Positions 3,488 to 13,681 of a stretch of DNA of 64,000 nucleotides are shown one piece after another (the first letter of the stretch is position 1; every line of letters begins with the position of its first letter). This DNA is from Prevotellaceae bacterium MN60 (GTDB taxonomy: Bacteria > Bacteroidota > Bacteroidia > Bacteroidales > Bacteroidaceae): contig FZQZ01000002.1 in assembly GCA_900199555.1 (NCBI GenBank), forward strand, positions 186,001 to 250,000, written 5' to 3'. The position numbers and the translations under genes were made by a program. The notes under the pieces were generated by a model. That model was not told the origin of the DNA. It saw only the letters and a list, made by a program, of their open reading frames with translations, and did no database searches.

Positions 3488-4607
3488 ATAACTGATGATA
3501 ATAACGCAAAGGTGGCAGATTTGTTATGTCGGGATGTAACATTTGTATAAAATCGCTCAACAGCCAGTCGGGACGGAAGGGTGTCTCCTCGTAAAAAAGG
3601 GAGAGCTCTACATTACAACCATAGACATGATGCTGGCGTAGAGCCTTGAACTGGTAGTAGCCTGCATGCTCGTTGTACAGTTCATGGAAGCAAAGGGGAT
3701 GACTATTGCTATAGCGAAAGAGCCAGATGTCGCTCTCACCAGCCTTCTCTAGCACCGTCTCGAAGGGTAAGGGTACGGAACCGCTATGGGTATCTTCAGA
3801 CCATGGATAATAACAAACGGCATCACGCAGCATCTGACCAATAGTGCTTCGTCCACCAGGCACATACCACACGCTACCCGTGACCTTGTCGAGTAATACC
3901 GAACGGGTAACCTTCGATGTCTTTGCCAACTGCTGGAGAGCATGATAGTTCTTATCAACCTCAGCAAACAGACTGTCAGCTTCTTGTTCGCAACCAAATA
4001 GCATACCATAGAAGCGCATCCACTCAGCACGAGCCAGAGGTGACACCTCCATATACTCAGCACACTCTATCAATGGGATATCAATCTCTTCTACCTTGCC
4101 ATAGCCTCCAGAATTTTCAAAGGGCGAAAGGAAAATGGCATCGGGATGCTGATCGATAATCTTCTCTATCACAGGGCTCATTCCGTCACCACAATCGGCA
4201 ATACGGCCTTTAGACACCTGCTCGTGGATATAGGGAATCTTAATATACTTCAGGTCGGCCACACCAGCGATATGCTGCTCTTGATGCAACATCTGAAGCA
4301 GGGAACAGTGAACGGTGGTGAATACTACACTACGGCGCAACGGGGTGCGCACAACAGTGCCCTTTGGAAGATTCGTGGGCACAGCCTGCTTGCTAGGCAC
4401 CAACAGATAGCGATGCAGCAGTTTGCCTTCCTTCCAAGGATTAGCCAGCGACACCTCGGTATACTCTTTATGCTTGACAATGGTAATGCGCTGAGCATAA
4501 CGAAAAGCCACCGTATCGCCGCCCTCCTGCTGGTGGGCACTCTGCCCACCACAGGAAGTCAGCCATACGATGACCGTGCATAGTAATAGATAAGGATATT
4601 GTTTCAT
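3480..4607 (-). CDS. btuF: Periplasmic corrinoid-binding lipoprotein (BtuF/FepB-like)
   Basis: A 375-residue solute-binding protein of the FepB/BtuF class. MKQYPYLLLCTVIVWLTSC has a lipobox with Cys near residue 19, so it should be a lipoprotein. The two-lobed fold is suggested by HIAGVADLKYI (about 110), DAIFLSPFEN (about 150), VLLDKVTGSVWYVPGGRSTIGQML (about 235-260) and SDIWLFR. It should deliver corrinoid to the permease, whose start it overlaps by 8 nt. Its own start shares one base with the stop of the preceding giant gene, another sign of coupling. Cobalamin as ligand is inferred from the operon riboswitch. Confidence 0.8.
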   Translation of the reverse strand: MKQYPYLLLCTVIVWLTSCGGQSAHQQEGGDTVAFRYAQRITIVKHKEYTEVSLANPWKEGKLLHRYLLVPSKQAVPTNLPKGTVVRTPLRRSVVFTTVHCSLLQMLHQEQHIAGVADLKYIKIPYIHEQVSKGRIADCGDGMSPVIEKIIDQHPDAIFLSPFENSGGYGKVEEIDIPLIECAEYMEVSPLARAEWMRFYGMLFGCEQEADSLFAEVDKNYHALQQLAKTSKVTRSVLLDKVTGSVWYVPGGRSTIGQMLRDAVCYYPWSEDTHSGSVPLPFETVLEKAGESDIWLFRYSNSHPLCFHELYNEHAGYYQFKALRQHHVYGCNVELSLFYEETPFRPDWLLSDFIQMLHPDITNLPPLRYYHQLYD

Positions 4608-7600
4608 TACTTCACAACAACCTTACGTACAGTACCATCAGCCATACGGATAATGTTCAGACCACGATGCAGTGACTGTCTGTTGACACCATTCAGGTCG
4701 TAAACAGCACGCTGCGTATTCTCGGTGTTCGCATTCTGAATACCGGTGAGGACAACATTATTCTCAGGCAATACCTCCTCGCCCTCGGCACCAAAGTTGT
4801 CGAAGCAGAAGTAGGCAGGAGTATTCATACCCCAGTCGCCATTGTCGCTACTTGAGAGTGCAAAGCCGAGTTTCTTTACCTTGCCCAGACCAGAGAGGTC
4901 AACATAGCGCCAATCGTTGATGATATAGGCCTTATCGTCGCGCAAGTCAGCGAGATAGAAGTCCTTAGTACCTGTCACCTCTCCATCAGCATCATAACCG
5001 GTAATGGTGAGCTTAAACCAGTCGTCCTTTCCAAACTTCTTGGCATAGGCATCGCCATTGGTCATAGAACTGTGTGCATAGGCCGAGTTGGTGATATAGA
5101 AGCCAGGAACCTCAATACCATCGGCATGATTGAGAACAGTTACGTTGCAAGGACCATAATAAGAAGAGGCGTAAGCAACACCATAGTTGGCTGAGCCATC
5201 GTATCCACCACCCACAATGTTGTTCCATTGATCATCGAGTGTCTCATACTTCGTATCGGTGCTATTAGCATAGCCGAAGAACCACCATGAAGCATAGTCA
5301 ACCATACAACCGGTAGCAAACTCAAAGTCGCCGCTAGTAAACTCGGTGCGATCTTCATCATCCTCAGTAGCTACGCTCATGTGTCCATCGGCAGGAACCT
5401 CGATATCTTCAAAAGTAGCCACCTCAAGGGCAAACTCTACGTTCTTTTCAGGCAATACCTCCTCGCCCTCGGCACCAAAGTTGTCGAAGCAGAAGTAAGC
5501 AGGCGTATTCATACCATAGTCACCACTATCGCTACTTGAAAGTTCGAAACCAAGTTTCTTCACCTTACCCAGGCCACTCAGGTCAACATAGCGCCAATCG
5601 TTGATGATATAAGCCTTATTAGGATCACGCAGGTCAGCAAGGTAGTAATCCTTAGTGCCAGTAACCTGGTCATTAGCATCATAACCGGTAACAGTCAGCT
5701 TAAACCAGTCACCCTTATCAAACTTCTTGGCAAAGCCGTCACCATTGGTCATAGAGCTATAAGCATAAGAAGAGTTGGTGATATAGAAGCCAGGAACTAC
5801 AGCACCCGTTCCGTGATTATTAACAGCAACATAACAAGGACCATTGAAGGCAGCTGCGTAAGCCACACCATAGTTGGCAGAGTTATCATAACCACCACCT
5901 ACAATGTTGTTCCACTGGTCATCGAGTGTTTCATACTTTGTATCAGTACGATTAGCATAACCAAACCAATACCAGTAATCCCATTCGTGCATGCAACCAG
6001 TAGCAAACTCGAAGTCGCCACTAGTAAACTCGGTACGCTCGTCATCCTCTTCAGTAGTTACACTCATGTGGCCATCGGCAGGAACCTCCAGATTCTCGAA
6101 GTCGGCAACAACGAGTGGGAACTCTACGTTCTTCTCTGGCAATACTTCCTCGCCCTCGGCACCGAAGTTATCGAAGCAGAAGTAGGCAGGCGTATTCATA
6201 CCATAGTCACCACTATCGCTACTTGAAAGTTCGAAGCCAAGTTTCTTCACCTTACCCAGGCCACTCAGGTCAACATAGCGCCAGTCATTGATAATATAAG
6301 CCTTGCTTGGATCACGCAGGTCAGCCAGATAGTAATCCTTAGTACCAGTTTCATTGCCATCAACATCGTAACCAGTGATGGTCAGCTTAAACCAGTCACC
6401 CTTCTCAAACTTCTTGGCAAAGCCATCGCCATTGAGCATTGAGCTGTATGCATAAGAAGAGTTGGTGATATAGAAGCCAGGAACCACAGCACCTGTTGAA
6501 TTATGCATCACATCAACATAGCATGGACCATTGAAGGCAGCAGCATAAGCAACACCATAGTTGGCAGAGTTATTATAACCACCACCTACAATATTGTTCC
6601 ACTGGTCATCGAGAGTCTCATACTTTGTATCAGTACGATTAGCATAACCAAACCAATACCAGTAATCCCAATCGTGCATACAACCGGTAGCAAACTTATA
6701 GGTACCACTGGCAAAGTCGGTGCGTTCGTCATCCTCAGCAGTAGTCACGCTCATGTGACCATCTGCAGGAACCTCGATATCTTCGAAGTCTGCCACCTTT
6801 GCATCTACAACGACAGCTGCATAATTAAGATACAGTGTAGCATCCTCTGTAATCTCGCTGACAGGTTCACCATCTATAGCAGTAAGCCATGTAGGATACA
6901 AACCGCTTACAGCATCCAACTCAGGTAACGTGCCATTGGTATAGAGAGATGCTGTTTCTTCAGAGAGATTGCTGGTATAATCAACCTTATATACTTTATC
7001 ACCGCCAATCACAGGATGAGAATCTGTTCCCAGTTTCTGTCCGAATGCCTCACCCAACAGATAAGCCACCTCACCAGACTTCATCTGCTCACTGGTAACA
7101 GTGGTCTGAGCAGTAGTGATGTTATACTCGGCAGTAGCGAAGGCATTCTTCACATTATCCTTCTTGGTAGTTCCACCTACGCAGGCAGCAACGGTAGTAC
7201 CTTCTACATTACCCAGATTAAAGATATTCTCGATAACGGCTGTAGCATTATTTGAACCAGCAACACCACCACAGTTAGTAGAACCCTTTACCTGACCAAG
7301 GTTGTAGCTATTGGTCAACTTAGCTGTTGCAACAGCCACATAGCCAGTGATACCACCAACATAGGTGCTTGTACCGCTAACATAAGCTTTGTTTACACAA
7401 CGATCAACAATAGCGTTTGCGTTCATCTGACCAGCAATACCACCTACATACTGCTTAGCAGATACCACGCCATCTACAGTGACACCGCTTACCGTGGCAT
7501 CCTTCAGATAAGCAAACAGACCTTGATTGGTTGCAGTAGCATTGTTGATATAGAGACCGCCAACAGTATGGTTCTGACCATCAAACGTGCCCTGATAAGC

Positions 7601-10054
7601 CTTAGTAGTGGTTGCACCACCAATAGGAATCCAAGCATAATCACCCAAATCGATATCGGCAGTGAGCACAGCCTTTGCCTTATAATCTCCGCCATTAACA
7701 TGATTAGCGAACCAAGCCAGTTCGGCACCCGTACCAATCTGGTAAACGCTTTCTATTGCAGTAGGCTCAGTCTGTGTATGACCATCCCATCCAGTGGCAT
7801 CCATAGCAGTCAGTGTTACAGCAAAATCCTGCTCACCTTCCGCATTGTCTGCAATAAGATAGGCATTACGATAGCAGCGATAGCCGTCCTTTGAGGCTGT
7901 CAACTCATATACGCCATAGGTACCAGTATAGGTACCATCTGTATTGGCAGCAATCTCCTCGCCATAGCGTGTCAGTGTGTAGTTAACACCCTCCTCTTCG
8001 CACAATAGACGAATGATAAACTGCTTAGCCTCAGCAATAGGAATATGTACTTCCGGAATAGCACCGAAGTATGTTTTGTGGGCAATAGCTGTAAAGTTGG
8101 GAGAACGACCAGCTATACGACTGGTATGACGATGGTTACCGATAGGATCACCATAACCATTCACCTGAATAACGCCCTCGTTCATCACGATCTCATTGTT
8201 AGCATCATTAGGTACAGTAATGGTAACAGCCTGAGCCGAAGCAGCAGAGCCAAAGGTATATTGACCACTACCCAGAATCAGCGAAGTACCATTAGGTATT
8301 CCGTTGTAGGTAACATAGGCCGACATATTATAGATACCAGCCATCTTATTAGCAGGATGACGCAGTCCAGAATACTGAATCTTCACCTGGTCGCCAGGGA
8401 TAAACGTCTTACTACCTGTACGTGTAGCATTCGTAATCTCACGATGACATTTCTTGGCTGTCAGTACCTGATATACCGCATTACCTGCAGCATCGATCAG
8501 ACGGACAATCTGTCGTCCTTCCTTTAAGAATACGGTATAAGAATCATCGTCGTTCTTTGTCACGCCTGTAGTTCCGAAGCCGTTATAGGTAGCCATTTGC
8601 TCACCAATAACAGGATAAGCTATCTCTACATTCTCTACGCCCGTAGGCTTGAAGGTATAGGCATATCCTTCTTCTGTATCAAGATAGTAGAATACGTCGT
8701 GTTCAGCATCCACAAATTTACCTGCCAGTTTCTTGGCATCTTCGTTATAACCCTCGTTGATAATCATATTGGGGTCGATAGTAGTAGCGCCACCACCTAC
8801 TGTTACCACATAGGCAGCAGTATTCTCTGGCCATATAGCACTCCAATATTCGCCACCCATATAGGGGTTCTTTGTGGTACCACTATAGTAGTTCAGACCG
8901 ATAGCATCATAGGTAACCAGTACGATAGCAGTACCATTGCCTACGGCCTTGATAGTTGCCCATGGGTCTGTTACCTCTTTCTCTATTTCAATAACGCCTG
9001 TGCTGGGAGTGCCATCAAGATTAATCACTGTATAGTGGAAATCTGGCTCGATAAAATAGTTGTTGGTAGAGTTATCGGTCAACTCCCATGAGCGCAAAGC
9101 AAGAGCATCATAAGTATCACCTACGTTTAGTTTCAGGTGTCCACGTTCGTTGATATTCACAAAAATGTCACCAGTCTCATAACCACCATTCCACTGCACA
9201 TCGTGCTTGATAGTCTTAGCACCAAAGGCCTCATAATCGGCGTTAGTGAAAGCAAGTGCTGGGCGTGTAGCCTCTTCCAGTGTCATCTTAAAGTAGCCAC
9301 CCTGTGTCAGGCCTCCGCTCTTCCAAGTACGATAGTTATATACTTGGTTGTTGGCCAAGTGATAGGTCAGCACTTTGTTGCCACCTTCGTTTACTACATT
9401 CTTTGGCTCTATCTTGGTAAATGCCACATAATGGCTAAACTTCATACCCAAGAAGAACTCTGCATCAACAGGCACCGTTACAGTGTAATCGGCTCCCTGT
9501 GGGATAGCTCCCGTCACATTGATACCACCAGTAAGCGTACCCTGCTTGTAGAACGTCATGTAGCCCTCAGCCTGATGCGCCTCACTAGGAATCAGTTGTA
9601 CATAATAGCTGTTACCATTTAGAGCCAGGAACGTCTTACGATTGGCAGTAACGCTGTTGCCGACGGTAATGTCCTGCTTTACACCTTCTCGTGTATTCAC
9701 AGTCACCTCAACGGTGTAGTCTGTATCAACCACCCAACCACTATTAGTTGCATAGGCAGTACAGGTAAGCACCGTAAACTCTTGGTCAGCCTCGCTGGTA
9801 ACATGGATGTCAATTGTTCCATTAACGACATCGGCATTGGTTCCATAGGCCGTAAGAACATAAACTCCTTCGGGAACGTCAAACGAATAGACGCGTGAGG
9901 CAGGCTCACCAACATCAATAACATCACCCGTTACTTTGTTCACCAGACTCATGGTAGGCGATGTACTATTCATCGTCACCTTTACGCTGGCCGCATCAGC
10001 AATGTTTATCGAAAACATTACCAATGCCATGATACTTAGTAATAGTTTTTTCAT
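4607..10054 (-). CDS. Giant surface protein with GLUG motifs and three tandem DUF4465 domains
   Basis: A protein of about 1815 residues in the B12 operon. I chose the start at 10054 because MKKLLLSIMALVMFSINIADA is a clean signal peptide; the frame is open for 13 further codons upstream. The N-terminal 800 residues are Ig-like beta segments. Residues about 820-985 carry GLUG-type repeats (VGGIAG, VGGITG, CGGVAG). Residues about 1085-1760 are three near-identical DUF4465 domains, each with PADGHMSV, PGFYITNS, YYLADLRD and NTPAYFCFDNFG. The C-terminus (AVYDLNGVNRQ to VRKVVVK) resembles a type IX secretion sorting domain, so it should sit on the outer surface. DUF4465 is, to my memory, linked to surface corrinoid capture (BtuH-like); this link should be verified. 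Confidence 0.85.
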   Translation of the reverse strand: MKKLLLSIMALVMFSINIADAASVKVTMNSTSPTMSLVNKVTGDVIDVGEPASRVYSFDVPEGVYVLTAYGTNADVVNGTIDIHVTSEADQEFTVLTCTAYATNSGWVVDTDYTVEVTVNTREGVKQDITVGNSVTANRKTFLALNGNSYYVQLIPSEAHQAEGYMTFYKQGTLTGGINVTGAIPQGADYTVTVPVDAEFFLGMKFSHYVAFTKIEPKNVVNEGGNKVLTYHLANNQVYNYRTWKSGGLTQGGYFKMTLEEATRPALAFTNADYEAFGAKTIKHDVQWNGGYETGDIFVNINERGHLKLNVGDTYDALALRSWELTDNSTNNYFIEPDFHYTVINLDGTPSTGVIEIEKEVTDPWATIKAVGNGTAIVLVTYDAIGLNYYSGTTKNPYMGGEYWSAIWPENTAAYVVTVGGGATTIDPNMIINEGYNEDAKKLAGKFVDAEHDVFYYLDTEEGYAYTFKPTGVENVEIAYPVIGEQMATYNGFGTTGVTKNDDDSYTVFLKEGRQIVRLIDAAGNAVYQVLTAKKCHREITNATRTGSKTFIPGDQVKIQYSGLRHPANKMAGIYNMSAYVTYNGIPNGTSLILGSGQYTFGSAASAQAVTITVPNDANNEIVMNEGVIQVNGYGDPIGNHRHTSRIAGRSPNFTAIAHKTYFGAIPEVHIPIAEAKQFIIRLLCEEEGVNYTLTRYGEEIAANTDGTYTGTYGVYELTASKDGYRCYRNAYLIADNAEGEQDFAVTLTAMDATGWDGHTQTEPTAIESVYQIGTGAELAWFANHVNGGDYKAKAVLTADIDLGDYAWIPIGGATTTKAYQGTFDGQNHTVGGLYINNATATNQGLFAYLKDATVSGVTVDGVVSAKQYVGGIAGQMNANAIVDRCVNKAYVSGTSTYVGGITGYVAVATAKLTNSYNLGQVKGSTNCGGVAGSNNATAVIENIFNLGNVEGTTVAACVGGTTKKDNVKNAFATAEYNITTAQTTVTSEQMKSGEVAYLLGEAFGQKLGTDSHPVIGGDKVYKVDYTSNLSEETASLYTNGTLPELDAVSGLYPTWLTAIDGEPVSEITEDATLYLNYAAVVVDAKVADFEDIEVPADGHMSVTTAEDDERTDFASGTYKFATGCMHDWDYWYWFGYANRTDTKYETLDDQWNNIVGGGYNNSANYGVAYAAAFNGPCYVDVMHNSTGAVVPGFYITNSSYAYSSMLNGDGFAKKFEKGDWFKLTITGYDVDGNETGTKDYYLADLRDPSKAYIINDWRYVDLSGLGKVKKLGFELSSSDSGDYGMNTPAYFCFDNFGAEGEEVLPEKNVEFPLVVADFENLEVPADGHMSVTTEEDDERTEFTSGDFEFATGCMHEWDYWYWFGYANRTDTKYETLDDQWNNIVGGGYDNSANYGVAYAAAFNGPCYVAVNNHGTGAVVPGFYITNSSYAYSSMTNGDGFAKKFDKGDWFKLTVTGYDANDQVTGTKDYYLADLRDPNKAYIINDWRYVDLSGLGKVKKLGFELSSSDSGDYGMNTPAYFCFDNFGAEGEEVLPEKNVEFALEVATFEDIEVPADGHMSVATEDDEDRTEFTSGDFEFATGCMVDYASWWFFGYANSTDTKYETLDDQWNNIVGGGYDGSANYGVAYASSYYGPCNVTVLNHADGIEVPGFYITNSAYAHSSMTNGDAYAKKFGKDDWFKLTITGYDADGEVTGTKDFYLADLRDDKAYIINDWRYVDLSGLGKVKKLGFALSSSDNGDWGMNTPAYFCFDNFGAEGEEVLPENNVVLTGIQNANTENTQRAVYDLNGVNRQSLHRGLNIIRMADGTVRKVVVK
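4770..6800 (-). repeat. Three in-frame direct repeats encoding the DUF4465 domains
   Basis: The copies lie at about 6141-6800, 5455-6114 and 4770-5425. Matching anchors (the codons for GEEVLPE) are 684 and 687 nt apart. Long stretches are nearly identical at the DNA level, so unequal recombination could change the domain number. Confidence 0.9.
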
Positions 10055-10094
10055 GTTTTTATTTTTATTGATAAAAGATATAATTATACACAAG

Positions 10095-11366
10095 TTACTT
10101 CACGATGTATTTCTGACCATCGCTGATATAGAGGGTACCACGCTGAGTAGCTTTCACACGCTGCCCCTGTAGATTATACTGTTGGTGGTTCGGCTGATGA
10201 GCAACTTCATTGTTCTGGATACCTGTGAAATGTCCATCGGGTGGAAGTGCAAGGAAATGCCCTGGGTTGATATATACCTTATGTGTACCCAGCAATTCAC
10301 CCTCTGGCGACCATTGATATAATCTGCCTGCAGAAGCAAACGAGGAAGCATCCGTAGCATAAATATAGCCGGTATAGGGATTCACATAGATACCATAAGG
10401 TGCTCCCATCTGTTTAATATCATTCATCAGGGTACCAGGCAACTGTTCTTCTATACCACTACCGCCCATACTGGCCATCACCTCCTCAGGGTCTATCGTC
10501 ACATAATTAAATTCATACTCGTTTGTATAGTATGAGAAACGCGAGCCGATGGCTATAAATTTTCCATCTAAAGTAGTACAACTATAGGTAGAGGCATAGT
10601 CCAATCTTACATAACATTCTTCTACTCCCTGTAGTGCTTGTTCACAGTCCAGAATGATGCATGCTGCAGGGATATCGTAGTAGTCGCCAGGCGAATTGAT
10701 ACAGAGGTAGCGCCCACTCTGCGACAACTTGCCATAGAGGTTGATTTGTTGGGTATCTATCGTCTTCTCTACCTGCATAGTTTCTGCATTCAGGATGCTC
10801 ACCGTGGTCTCATATTCGTGGTCTTCTTCAAACGCATAGCCACCCGTATTAGCCACAAACAGTCTGCCCTTATATAGGGCGATACCCTCGGGTTCATAGC
10901 CTACCTCCGTAGCTGCCACCACCGTAAAGGTTGTAAGGTCTATCTTTGCCACATAGCCCTTATTGAAATACTTCATACCACTTACCGTGCCACACTCGTG
11001 TCCATAGCTGGTGACATAGACATAACGCCCATCTGAACAGAGTTTGCGATTGTTGGGAATATCCTCGATGGCGACTACCTCCCTACCCTCGGGCGTGATA
11101 AACTGTACGATGTTCGACCAGTTGATGGCAATGGCTATCAGGTTGTCATTTACCTGAATGATATCGTTTGGTGTGTCGCCAATCTTCTTACCGTTCACAT
11201 CGCGAAACCACTGATTGCTTACCACATGATCATCCTCAAAATAGGTCAGTTTACCATTATCTGACTGCCAATTACCCTCGTTCACCACAATCAGCTTCTC
11301 TTGTGCTACGATGGCTATAGCCAGCAGCAGTGACAGGGATAGTAGTATGTATTTTTTCGTCATCAT
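10095..11366 (-). CDS. DUF5074/YncE-like beta-propeller protein, BtuG-like
   Basis: A 423-residue secreted protein. A signal peptide ends at AIVAQ (about residue 22). The body is a beta-propeller of the DUF5074/YncE type: LIVVNEGNWQSDNG near residue 25, GDTPNDIIQV near 62, YVTSYGHECGTVSG near 115, GYEPEGIALYKGRLFVANTG near 155. Bacteroides BtuG, a surface corrinoid-binding propeller that works with BtuB, belongs to this general class, and the position next to the TonB receptor fits. Unlike BtuG there is no lipobox. The C-terminus (YNLQGQRVKATQ to GQKYIVK) instead looks like a type IX sorting domain. Its ATG overlaps the receptor stop codon by one base. Confidence 0.85.
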   Translation of the reverse strand: MMTKKYILLSLSLLLAIAIVAQEKLIVVNEGNWQSDNGKLTYFEDDHVVSNQWFRDVNGKKIGDTPNDIIQVNDNLIAIAINWSNIVQFITPEGREVVAIEDIPNNRKLCSDGRYVYVTSYGHECGTVSGMKYFNKGYVAKIDLTTFTVVAATEVGYEPEGIALYKGRLFVANTGGYAFEEDHEYETTVSILNAETMQVEKTIDTQQINLYGKLSQSGRYLCINSPGDYYDIPAACIILDCEQALQGVEECYVRLDYASTYSCTTLDGKFIAIGSRFSYYTNEYEFNYVTIDPEEVMASMGGSGIEEQLPGTLMNDIKQMGAPYGIYVNPYTGYIYATDASSFASAGRLYQWSPEGELLGTHKVYINPGHFLALPPDGHFTGIQNNEVAHQPNHQQYNLQGQRVKATQRGTLYISDGQKYIVK

Positions 11367-13348
11367 TATATTCCGAATGATAGGGTTAGTTTATAGTTTT
11401 TTCCCGGCATGGGATAGCGAGGGATATGCTCATACTGCTCGTCCAACAGATCTATCACCTCCAGACAAGCGCCTACCATGGTCTTGCCCACAGTGGTGCT
11501 ATATGATAGTTTGGCATCGATATTATGATAGGGCTCCAACATATCTTCGGGGTCGGCATAGCTCCACATACGCTCACCCACATAGAGGTGGGAAACGGTG
11601 AGCGAAGCGCCCTTCCACATAGCCATGGCCGTGATGCTATGCGACAATGTTGGCGAATAGCAGATGGGCTTATCGTAGGTATCTTCATCATTGGGATCTG
11701 TGCGATTTACGTCACGCTGCCACGTCAGTGAACCCAACAGCGAGAACTGCCAGTCGCCAATAGCGTAGCGAGCCGTAGCCGTAGCATTCAGTCCCTGACA
11801 GAAGGTATAGCCATAGTTCATCATCGTCCACGTATAGGTGCCCTTCAGTGGCAGACAAACTATTCGGTTTTCTATCTTGTTCTGATAGATGTCGGCTTGG
11901 AGCGATATGGTGAGTGGTGAATGGTGAGTGACGAGGAGTGTGGAGTGATACTCTATGCCCAGATTCCACTGCTTGGTATATTCAGGTTGCAGGTTGCGGT
12001 TGCCCACTTGCGTATAATAGAGGTCGTTGAGCGTAGGTGCGCGGAATATCTTCTTATACCATGCGCGCAGTGTCAGCTCATGCTTCGACCTATTGGGGTT
12101 GATGGTATATGCCAGCGATACGGCAGGTGTCCATCGGTCTAAGGGGTCAGCAGCACCAGCATGCACAAAGGTAAAGTCGTGCAGGTGCTGATGTAGCATG
12201 GATACAGCAGCTTGTATGCCGTTCAGATTCATCTGTGCCGCCAACACCTCTTTTTGGTCTAAGCGGAACACATGGTCAAAGCGCTTCAGGTCGGCACGCA
12301 ACTTGCTATAGCGCACGTCATAACTTGTAGAGAGCGAGAGCCACGACCACGGCATATAACCATAGCACAGTGCGCCATAGACATCCTCCTGACGATAGTG
12401 GTTGTTGACGCGTGCCGTATTCTGATTTTCGGGATAGTCGGTACAATAGCGCAGATATTCGTTGGTATATTTCGCATTAGCCTTCACGCGATGGTGGCCC
12501 CAGAACTCTTGCTGATAACTGGCTTGCACGAAGAAGTCGCGATCCCACTCGCGCCCCACATTGATATACTTGTCGCTCAGTCGCCTCACGATACCACCCG
12601 GGCATCCTCTTTCCGAGTCATAATAATATAAGTGTGACGAAAAGCCACCTTTAAACAAGGCACCCTCTATGCGACCATAGCGGATATCGCTATTGGCTCG
12701 TCGGCCAATCGTATCCTCGTATTCTGAATGATAACGAAACGGATAATCCCCCTCCGACTTACACCATTCGCCATCCACAAATCCGCTCCAGCCGCGCCAA
12801 GCAAACTGGGCGTTGGCCTTAGCCATATAGGTAGAAAAAGAGGCTCGTCGAAGTTGCACGGAAAGAGAGTCGTGAGTGGGTCTTTTGGTTCGCATATATA
12901 CTGTAGCGCCCGACGCGTATTCGCTGGCCGACTGACAGTTATCAAGTTTATTGGCATTGTATAGCGATACACTTTCCATCGACGAGAGCGAGAATTTTCC
13001 AAGGTCAACAGTACCATTCTGAGCGTTGGTGATACGTATGCCATCCACATAGACGCCCACATGCTGGGCACCCATCGAGCGCACATTGATGGTCTTTAGT
13101 CCACCAAGTCCGCCATAGTCTTTTATCTGTACGCCAGAGAAATACTTCAGCGCATCAGCCACCGATGTAGTGGACAATGCCTGCAGGTCTGCTCCGCGCA
13201 AGGTTTGTGATGTAGCCAACGGTCTCCTTCCATACACCTCTATCTCCTCCACCTGTTGTAGTGAGTCTAGACGTGATGGTTGTTGCGAAAAGGCCGCAGC
13301 AAACGGAACGAGGATGCACAATAATAGCACCGCGTGACGTTTATTCAT
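11366..13348 (-). CDS. btuB: TonB-dependent outer membrane receptor, cobalamin type
   Basis: A 660-residue outer membrane transporter and the first gene after the cobalamin riboswitch. A signal peptide (ending AAAFSQ) is followed by the plug: EIEVYGRRPLATS (about residue 35), DALKYFSGVQIKDYGG (about 65-80), INVRSMGAQHVGVYVDGIRI (about 87). The barrel follows and ends in an aromatic-rich strand finishing LTLSFGI. It should import corrinoids across the outer membrane using TonB energy. There is no N-terminal carboxypeptidase-like or SusC-type extension, which agrees with a BtuB-like receptor. Codons near residue 475 (LVTHHSPL) come from a 7-bp tandem repeat. Confidence 0.9.
   Translation of the reverse strand: MNKRHAVLLLCILVPFAAAFSQQPSRLDSLQQVEEIEVYGRRPLATSQTLRGADLQALSTTSVADALKYFSGVQIKDYGGLGGLKTINVRSMGAQHVGVYVDGIRITNAQNGTVDLGKFSLSSMESVSLYNANKLDNCQSASEYASGATVYMRTKRPTHDSLSVQLRRASFSTYMAKANAQFAWRGWSGFVDGEWCKSEGDYPFRYHSEYEDTIGRRANSDIRYGRIEGALFKGGFSSHLYYYDSERGCPGGIVRRLSDKYINVGREWDRDFFVQASYQQEFWGHHRVKANAKYTNEYLRYCTDYPENQNTARVNNHYRQEDVYGALCYGYMPWSWLSLSTSYDVRYSKLRADLKRFDHVFRLDQKEVLAAQMNLNGIQAAVSMLHQHLHDFTFVHAGAADPLDRWTPAVSLAYTINPNRSKHELTLRAWYKKIFRAPTLNDLYYTQVGNRNLQPEYTKQWNLGIEYHSTLLVTHHSPLTISLQADIYQNKIENRIVCLPLKGTYTWTMMNYGYTFCQGLNATATARYAIGDWQFSLLGSLTWQRDVNRTDPNDEDTYDKPICYSPTLSHSITAMAMWKGASLTVSHLYVGERMWSYADPEDMLEPYHNIDAKLSYSTTVGKTMVGACLEVIDLLDEQYEHIPRYPMPGKNYKLTLSFGI
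11910..11930. repeat. Heptanucleotide micro-array inside the TonB receptor gene
   Basis: Three units of GTGARTG in tandem, read in frame by the receptor gene. The same unit occurs at 21350-21370. Confidence 0.7.
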
Positions 13349-13442
13349 ATCGTTTTCACCTTCTAAGTTTAATAAAAAGGGGGAGACCGACCTGTCTCAC
13401 GACAACAGTCTCCACGAGACTTATATAATAATACACGTATTC

Positions 13443-13479
13443 CGCTGTGGGCCCTAACCCCAGAGGGCGTCAACAGCGA
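13443..13479 (-). promoter_or_regulatory. Hairpin downstream of the riboswitch aptamer
   Basis: An outer stem CGCTGT/ACAGCG encloses GCCCT/AGGGC. It follows the aptamer by a few bases and may be part of the expression platform. It has no T tract and lies about 100 nt before the receptor start. Confidence 0.5.
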
Positions 13480-13481
13480 TT

Positions 13482-13628
13482 GATGCACAAGCAGGTCTTC
13501 TGACTTTACAACTTAAGGAGCAAACGTCTTCCCAATAATATCAGTGACTTCGTGTTCACCCCGTATTTAGTTGCTTACAGCTGCGGGACAGTTGGGGATT
13601 CTCACCCCATTCCCTTACTCTTGTGCGC
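13482..13628 (-). promoter_or_regulatory. Cobalamin (B12) riboswitch aptamer
   Basis: Read on the minus strand, the leader contains GGTGAGAATCCCC, then CTGTCCCGCAGCTGTAA, and near the 3' side AAGTCAGAAGACCTGC, the B12 box. These are the conserved core elements of cobalamin riboswitches in the right order and spacing. It lies between a promoter at 13631-13638 and the TonB receptor start at 13348, so adenosylcobalamin or another corrinoid should repress the uptake operon. Confidence 0.95.
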
Positions 13629-13630
13629 TG

Positions 13631-13638
13631 CAAAGATA
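13631..13638 (-). promoter_or_regulatory. Promoter -7 element (TATCTTTG) of the B12 operon
   Basis: A TAnnTTTG match just upstream of the aptamer on the minus strand. It is divergent from the prfA promoter 44 nt away. Confidence 0.75.
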
Positions 13639-13681
13639 CAAATTATTTTTAATATCTTGTATTTTTCTCTCAAATTTTTCG

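Follow-up and report, generated by a model that had tools for sequence, protein, structure and literature searches.

Operon organization and cobalamin riboswitch

A 64,000-nucleotide stretch of the genome of Prevotellaceae bacterium MN60 (contig FZQZ01000002.1, positions 186,001 to 250,000; here called the window) contains a cobalamin riboswitch followed, all on the minus strand between positions 2480 and 13658, by genes for a BtuB-like TonB-dependent receptor, a BtuG-like beta-propeller, a protein of 1815 amino acids (aa) in which an N-terminal module (N-module) and an insert precede three DUF4465 domains, a BtuF-like binding lipoprotein, and a BtuC-like permease (Table 1). Neighboring genes overlap or lie ~40 bp apart, which fits a single operon. 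The run is likely to represent a riboswitch-controlled, Btu-type corrinoid uptake operon whose capture layer is exported by a type IX secretion system (T9SS) instead of being lipid anchored.

The first-pass annotation of this DNA had called the riboswitch clear, and its score well above the gathering threshold of RF00174 confirms this; it is the only cobalamin riboswitch found in the 2.74-Mb genome (RF00174 search, E ≤ 0.001). The five proteins listed in that annotation are all present, but the lipoprotein and permease genes lie outside the interval of 4607 to 13628 that it gave for the operon. The terminator-like hairpin between riboswitch and btuB appears in the minimum-free-energy fold, the region folding no better than shuffled sequences (z −1.15; 24 of 200 as good), and is only suggestive of a possible attenuation site.

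The propeller, whose gene adjoins btuB, matches BtuG-type chains (8okv, 8p97, 3dsm, and others) with phmmer E values of ~1e-15 to 1e-13 and reaches 24.3 bits against PF16819, slightly below the cut-off of 27.2. The closest NCBIfam relative of the permease is BtuC (184.3 bits, under the cut-off of 334). No btuD was found within the run, the rest of the genome not having been searched for it. The genome encodes methylmalonyl-CoA mutase (two matches), which makes a demand for B12 plausible. In Xylanibacter ruminicola KHP1, a member of a neighboring genus, genes beside cobalamin riboswitches are among the most cobalamin responsive (PMC11575231; this and the other sources cited by PMC identifier are represented here by parts of their text).

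Table 1. Features of the corrinoid uptake locus, with positions in the window
Feature	Position	Strand	Basis or remark
Cobalamin riboswitch aptamer	13473..13658	-	RF00174, 77.2 bits (gathering 31.5), E 2.8e-17
Terminator-like hairpin (GGAGAC...GTCTCC, then T-run), between riboswitch and btuB	13374..13413	-	Read from sequence
BtuB-like TonB-dependent receptor, 660 aa	11366..13348	-	PF00593 and PF07715 over cut-off
BtuG-like beta-propeller, 423 aa	10095..11366	-	Signal peptide without lipobox; T9SS-like C-terminal tail
1815-aa protein	4607..10054	-	Signal, N-module, insert, three DUF4465 domains, tail
N-module, aa 22-676, ~655-aa beta-domain module	8027..9991	-	Undescribed; conserved in B12 operons
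Insert, aa 677-1087, ~410 aa	6794..8026	-	No Pfam match; in L157/L158/L159/L201-type relatives, unmatched in G055
DUF4465 copy 1, aa 1087-1298	6161..6796	-	PF14717 and domain bounds
DUF4465 copy 2, aa 1316-1527	5474..6109	-	PF14717 and domain bounds
DUF4465 copy 3, aa 1545-1755	4790..5422	-	PF14717, domain bounds, alignment to 9hmu and 9fct
C-terminal tail, aa 1756-1815, putative T9SS sorting signal	4610..4789	-	73.9 bits in genome-wide tail search
BtuF-like binding lipoprotein, 375 aa	3480..4607	-	PF01497, 75.6 bits; lipobox LTSC by eye
BtuC-like permease, 335 aa	2480..3487	-	PF01032, 254.9 bits
Mosaic segment: second half of btuG, N-module, and insert	6794..10754	-	Flanks far closer to sister G055 than segment

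DUF4465 domains and corrinoid binding

The 1815-aa protein matches PF14717 over three stretches (553.2 bits; cut-off, 25), and the copies match the B12-bound structures 9hmu, 9fct, and 9i2l, so that the comparison with DUF4465 structures proposed at first pass gave a positive result. Residues forming hydrogen bonds in both BtuJ1 and BtuJ2 are named in PMC12751083 and include BtuJ1 Tyr146, Asn241, Thr242, and Tyr245. In the alignment to 9fct, the equivalents of these four residues (the DE-loop Tyr and the HI-loop Asn-Thr and Tyr) are kept in all three window copies, and AB-loop Tyr97 is apparently unmatched. The Trp78 equivalent is kept in copy 3, where a His replaces a nearby DE-loop Tyr. The copies were first described as near-identical; there are indeed three, but at pairwise protein identities of 88.7, 77.3, and 80.1% they are similar only. 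With ratios of nonsynonymous to synonymous substitution of 0.12 to 0.15 among them, all three are under purifying selection.

In the first-pass annotation the link to B12 depended on the riboswitch, and the role of DUF4465 was conjectural. The riboswitch is real, but B12 binding has been reported for eight DUF4465 members (PMC13398666), so that the role of the domain no longer depends on the riboswitch alone and is largely settled. Among the riboswitches listed for the genus sample, 70 of 96 DUF4465 open reading frames (ORFs) lie ≤16 kb downstream of one on the same strand, a placement with a chance of ~0.005 for each. The likening of DUF4465 to BtuH did not hold: against 12 BtuH-type domains of BtuG fusions the hhalign probability is 0.1%, and kinship with BtuH was rejected by sequence. 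DUF4465 corresponds to the BtuJ family, and the protein to compare it with is BtuJ instead of BtuH.

C-terminal tails and type IX secretion

Both candidate surface proteins, the BtuG-like propeller and the 1815-aa protein, have a Sec signal without a lipobox (by our own scoring) and T9SS-like C termini, as the first-pass annotation had read them, and the genome encodes SprA (2572 bits) and PorU (1016.9 bits over two stretches). A tail profile was built from 39 tails chosen among the proteins compared here, including that of the 1815-aa protein; the propeller tail scores 55.0 bits against it. A search of the genome with this profile gives 54 matches, one of which falls in a frame of 23 aa, and among the 30 retrieved, every tailed protein with its N terminus available (13/13) has a signal-like start and no lipobox. 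Curated models recover few of the 39 tails even at E values up to 1 (PF18962, one, at 0.038; TIGR04183, two, the better at 0.0024).

Since the curated models miss these tails, co-occurrence with SprA was used as the test. Tails occur in 87 of 121 family-level genomes, 80 of which were searched for SprA: all 34 without tails (14 of them identified by subtraction), all 17 with ≤9 tails, and 29 others picked by hand. SprA is present in 44 of 46 tail-positive versus 6 of 34 tail-negative genomes (p 1.6e-13, phylogeny not corrected). Ten C termini of relatives, picked by eye, were also compared with NCBIfam. TIGR04183 is passed by five, which belong to four giant DUF4465 proteins and a protein with an N-module; one from another N-module protein falls just below it, two have no match, and two are dockerin-like. 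Dockerin ends are seen in BtuG and DUF4465 relatives at L093:8941-9390, L108:9512-9961, and L158:13664-14113 (L and G numbers denote compared loci and genomes). The window tails are T9SS-like and below curated membership, and export by the type IX route is probable.

Alternation of tail and lipobox

DUF4465 ORFs of the genus sample were counted as tailed when at least 45 aa follow the last DUF4465 domain. Where the N terminus is available, a lipobox occurs in 1 of 64 tailed ORFs, a doubtful case, versus 24 of 26 untailed ones, the three pieces of a frame-broken gene (L125) being excluded; the tail profile matches 60 of the 70 tailed ORFs and none of the 28 that are untailed. The published census of the family includes IPR026444, which we take to be the T9SS sorting domain. 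Among 824 DUF4465 sequences, 229 carry IPR026444, 88 carry IPR013424, 275 have a lipoprotein signal, and 170 are counted as periplasmic, none of these occurring together (PMC12751083, section 8); C-terminal extracellular targeting domains are present in 38% of members, exclusive of lipoprotein signals, and the family is concluded to be mainly extracellular (PMC12751083). The alternation at the level of the DUF4465 family is therefore already published; the present counts confirm it and add tails of a type that escapes the curated models.

BtuG-like propellers alternate between tail and lipobox as DUF4465 proteins do. In 54 genus loci, 12 have a tail and no lipobox, 26 a lipobox and no extension, 11 a lipobox and an extension, 3 no lipobox and an extension outside the tail model, and 2 neither. 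By eye, both of the last group and one of the three without a lipobox have a lipobox-like Cys that the regular expression missed, and in one of the 11 with both features (L093) the Cys lies within the signal peptide and the end is tail-like. In 75 loci with an N-module, the corresponding figures are 51 with a tail and no lipobox, 12 with no lipobox and an extension outside the model, 7 with a lipobox and no extension, 1 with a lipobox and a tail, 2 with a lipobox and an extension, and 2 with neither. This switch in BtuG was not found in print, in a search without most subscription journals. BtuG and T9SS occurred together only in PMC12578637, where BtuG is in the reference list, and type IX is absent from PMC10404256 and PMC8941943. 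Two BtuG-BtuH fusions without a lipobox and with a T9SS-like tail were also seen (L041:9417-11663 and L100:6315-8456); the extension of the former matches BtuH2 (7biz) at E 3e-45.

The occurrence of both display modes in one genus, BtuG included, would also be expected if lipidation and T9SS export were interchangeable without functional consequence and the system worked as it does in Bacteroides. This is rather unlikely, as operons with an N-module are mostly paired with a tailed BtuG, propellers with a lipobox and no extension being a small minority there, which suggests coevolution rather than drift.

Alternatively, the tails may not be export signals at all, and the proteins may hold B12 between the membranes. 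Such a periplasmic location would agree with the failure of the window tails to match curated sorting-domain models, with the sequences counted as periplasmic in the published census, and with a report that predicts lipidation for >70% of DUF4465 proteins and assigns periplasmic targeting signals to the others (PMC13398666). We consider it very improbable: the tails track SprA, tail and lipobox alternate in two unrelated families, TIGR04183 is over cut-off in relatives, BtuG acts extracellularly in Bacteroides, and PMC12751083 reaches the opposite conclusion for the family.

The N-terminal module

The first ~1087 residues of the 1815-aa protein, comprising the signal, the N-module, and the insert, were absent from the first-pass annotation. 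No Pfam family is over cut-off in the window N-module, matches to PF21461 are weak (6 of 9 members; best E 0.0014), and the N-module profile finds none of the PDB sequences at E values up to 10. The predicted structure is a chain of beta domains (predicted local distance difference test [pLDDT] score, 86.2) whose fold matches are generic, to tandem immunoglobulin (Ig)-like and surface-layer (S-layer) domains, the best (Z 8.6) covering 76 residues; when modeled by itself, the last domain (pLDDT, 75.4) matches nothing above Z 5.6. Relationships of the N-module to BtuH (hhalign 0.5%, against the 12 BtuH-type domains of BtuG fusions) and to DUF4465 (hhalign 0.7%) were rejected by sequence, as was kinship with the ~1800-aa N-terminal region of other giant DUF4465 proteins (no blastp match; hhalign 1.6%; best hmmsearch E 0.002, 6.9 bits).

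Relatives of the module were taken from the best 80 loci of 166 in a scan of genome contigs and comprise 81 ORFs, 9 of them cut by a contig end. They belong to Prevotellaceae, Muribaculaceae, Paludibacteraceae, and other Bacteroidales, and the titles of many point to herbivore guts as the source. DUF4465 is present in 34 of the 81 ORFs and absent from 47 (6 of these cut by a contig end). For 78 ORFs the locus has a BtuG-like gene on the same strand, and for 72 it has a BtuB-like one. Upstream riboswitches are present for 72 of the 81 ORFs and for 66 of the 68 with >4 kb of upstream sequence (30 with and 36 without DUF4465), the two exceptions being L163, whose contig begins at btuB, and L230. 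Of these riboswitches, 57 were called by regular expression (only those of L157 and L203 were checked with Rfam, both being confirmed) and 15 by Rfam on 23 loci negative by regular expression. Among the 80 family genomes searched for SprA, 7 have an N-module, and all 7 have SprA (p 0.04).

The presence of a riboswitch over N-modules with or without DUF4465 indicates that the module is a component of B12 loci in its own right, and by sequence it is an undescribed, conserved module of such loci. At L229:8136-14131, a riboswitch is followed by a frame of 493 residues, the end of which looks T9SS-like by eye, and by a protein with N-module and DUF4465; no btuB or btuG was found in the locus, which reads as a capture locus apart from the transporter. 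In L175:9977-15277 and L177:9827-16345 the profile match extends over almost the whole ORF, hinting at a second, partial copy of the module. Contig L162, labeled Bacillota, bears a Prevotella-type operon, and the label looks like a naming error.

The 1815-aa protein could be mainly a generic surface adhesin or S-layer-like scaffold, with the DUF4465 domains and riboswitch control being secondary. The resemblance of the N-module model to tandem Ig-like and S-layer domains and the many module ORFs that lack DUF4465 would fit such a role. It is nevertheless an improbable one, given that those fold matches are generic, that the module stands under cobalamin riboswitches both with and without DUF4465, and that pocket residues are present in all three copies, which are under purifying selection.

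Mosaic history and array length

Comparison with the sister genome G055 (locus L088) gives identities of 96% for BtuB, 92% for the DUF4465 array, 82% for the tail, 90% for BtuF, and 94% for BtuC, versus 77% for BtuG and 48% for the N-module, with the insert unmatched. Sliding identity falls around residue 205 of BtuG and is high again from the first DUF4465 domain. Against L157, L158, L159, and L201, the order is reversed: the N-module is 81 to 82% identical, the insert 71 to 76%, BtuG 76 to 81%, and BtuB 74 to 79%. Because BtuB is nearer to G055 and the N-module is much further from it than from these four relatives, recombination is indicated and selective divergence was rejected as the cause of the mosaic. 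One of the two lineages, that of the window or that of G055, has exchanged a ~4-kb cassette. Neither the donor nor the lineage that changed was found among the relatives compared.

DUF4465 is present in 76 of 200 genomes of the genus sample, and among the 98 DUF4465 ORFs, drawn from 91 loci and the window, are arrays of one, two, and three copies. Four copies occur in L235, from a metagenome-assembled genome (isolate RUG062), and array length thus changes among relatives from one to four copies. An assembly artifact is an unlikely source of the triple array, as G055 likewise has three copies. A tree of 80 domains places the last window copy together with those that come last in L088, L089, and L235, which implies that array position is older than these lineages. 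Giant DUF4465 proteins with another conserved N-terminal region (~1400 to 2100 aa) were seen at L103, L111, L116, L121, and 18 more loci; four of the giant DUF4465 proteins tested end in curated T9SS sorting domains. In the window, the neighbor convergent to the operon (1172-2404) encodes what by eye is an exported, esterase-like protein, the middle of which contains a low-complexity run with much Pro, Gln, Gly, and Arg.

Proposed mechanism and alternatives

Gene order, the riboswitch, DUF4465 homology with its pocket residues, the T9SS genes, the lipobox-less tails, and the linkage of module to riboswitch are evident from the sequence; export, corrinoid binding, hand-over, and anchoring are inferred. 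A fall in intracellular cobalamin would release expression through the riboswitch. BtuB would act as the outer membrane transporter, the BtuG-like propeller as a capture lid, and BtuF/BtuC as the inner route. Sec would carry the BtuG-like and 1815-aa proteins over the inner membrane, with cleavage by signal peptidase I, and the T9SS would recognize their C-terminal tails, leaving both proteins attached to the surface or released. The 1815-aa protein could present up to three corrinoid sites on a long stalk of beta domains and pass corrinoid to BtuG/BtuB and then to BtuF/BtuC; its N-module is probably a scaffold docking to BtuG/BtuB or may itself bind corrinoid. For Bacteroides, BtuG has been described as a lid on BtuB, and loading from accessory binders has been suggested (PMC10404256). 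T9SS-delivered, multivalent corrinoid capture, as proposed at first pass, is supported by the presence of SprA and PorU, by the tails that track SprA, and by the alternation of tail and lipobox, with export and binding as putative steps.

The same parts could serve a different end if the T9SS secreted the multivalent protein, together with the BtuG-like propeller, into the medium, where it would act as a corrinophore, the protein counterpart of a siderophore. Both proteins are without a lipid anchor, type A sorting domains are found among the tails of relatives, and B12-loaded vesicles of Bacteroides thetaiotaomicron bearing BtuJ have been proposed to be analogous to siderophores (PMC12751083). 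However, T9SS cargo may also be anchored at the surface (PMC10202324), and BtuG of Bacteroides forms a stable lid over BtuB (PMC10404256), which favors a capture layer kept close to its receptor. Release is accordingly an alternative to be taken seriously, although we think it unlikely.

Several results count against an operon with a T9SS-exported capture layer. The receptor is certain as a TonB receptor but falls below the curated BtuB cut-off, its best named relative being TIGR01779 at E 2.5e-27 and 95.7 bits, far under 599.7. Neither of the two window proteins matches TIGR04183 or PF18962 in its tail, and some relatives bear a type I dockerin (PF00404 over cut-off) instead of a tail. Exceptions to the association of tails with SprA run in both directions: G207 (54 tails) and G254 (1 tail) have no SprA match, and G203, G204, G228, G287, G296, and G312 have SprA without tails. 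The lipobox was called by a crude regular expression, and the sequences are related, so that the tests are not on independent points. An informative fold match for the N-module was not found, a weak match being no proof of a new fold.

On a broader and more tentative reading, the N-module would be a novel module for cobamide handling in Bacteroidales that possess a T9SS. Together with a T9SS-exported BtuG, it would form a lipid-free extracellular apparatus for capture, into which 0 to 4 DUF4465 domains can be plugged as binding sites. Lineages would swap the exposed cassette, made up of the module and half of BtuG, and keep the transporter BtuB; such a pattern would be expected if pressure from phages, immunity, or ligands drove the outer face to diverge.

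Members of gut communities compete for corrinoids, and in Bacteroides, where it has been well studied, the capture layer consists of lipoproteins. If Prevotella-type bacteria do export their capture layer, including BtuG, by T9SS, the scavenging of B12 would be among the functions of that system, and a part of the DUF4465 proteins counted as periplasmic (170/824 in PMC12751083) may be surface proteins with short tails that escaped the curated models. The N-module is a concrete new family, and arrays of one to four binding domains make valency testable.

Comparison with known systems

The operon type, the binding domain, and the display route of the DUF4465 family are known; the valency, the N-module, and the mosaic history are new, and the BtuG route was not found in print. 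In the two family papers, "tandem" and "fused" are absent from PMC13398666, and "tandem" is absent from PMC12751083.

As T9SS cargo of type A (TIGR04183/PF18962), the window proteins have the Sec signal, a comparable tail pattern, and SprA and PorU in the genome, and relatives bear the curated domain, but the window tails are short and under the curated models. BtuG2 and BtuG1 share with the BtuG-like protein a homologous beta-propeller encoded beside btuB; the window protein differs in having no lipobox, a propeller right after the signal peptide (by eye), and a C-terminal tail of ~50 residues. With BtuJ1, BtuJ2, and D5EK51 of the DUF4465 family (IPR027828), the 1815-aa protein has the same domain in common, PF14717 being over cut-off and the four pocket residues present in every copy, whereas the tandem copies, the N-module, and a tail type missed by curated models set it apart.

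The riboswitch-regulated Btu loci of B. thetaiotaomicron (BtuB, BtuG, BtuH, BtuJ, BtuK, BtuL, and BtuFCD) are a close parallel in their combination of a cobalamin riboswitch, a TonB receptor, a BtuG-type propeller, a DUF4465 (BtuJ) binder, BtuF, and BtuC. BtuG, BtuH, BtuJ, and BtuK of that organism are predicted lipoproteins (PMC12751083). In contrast, the BtuG-like and DUF4465 proteins of the window are lipobox-less and tailed, three tandem DUF4465 domains sit on an extension of ~1087 aa, and the run is without btuD.

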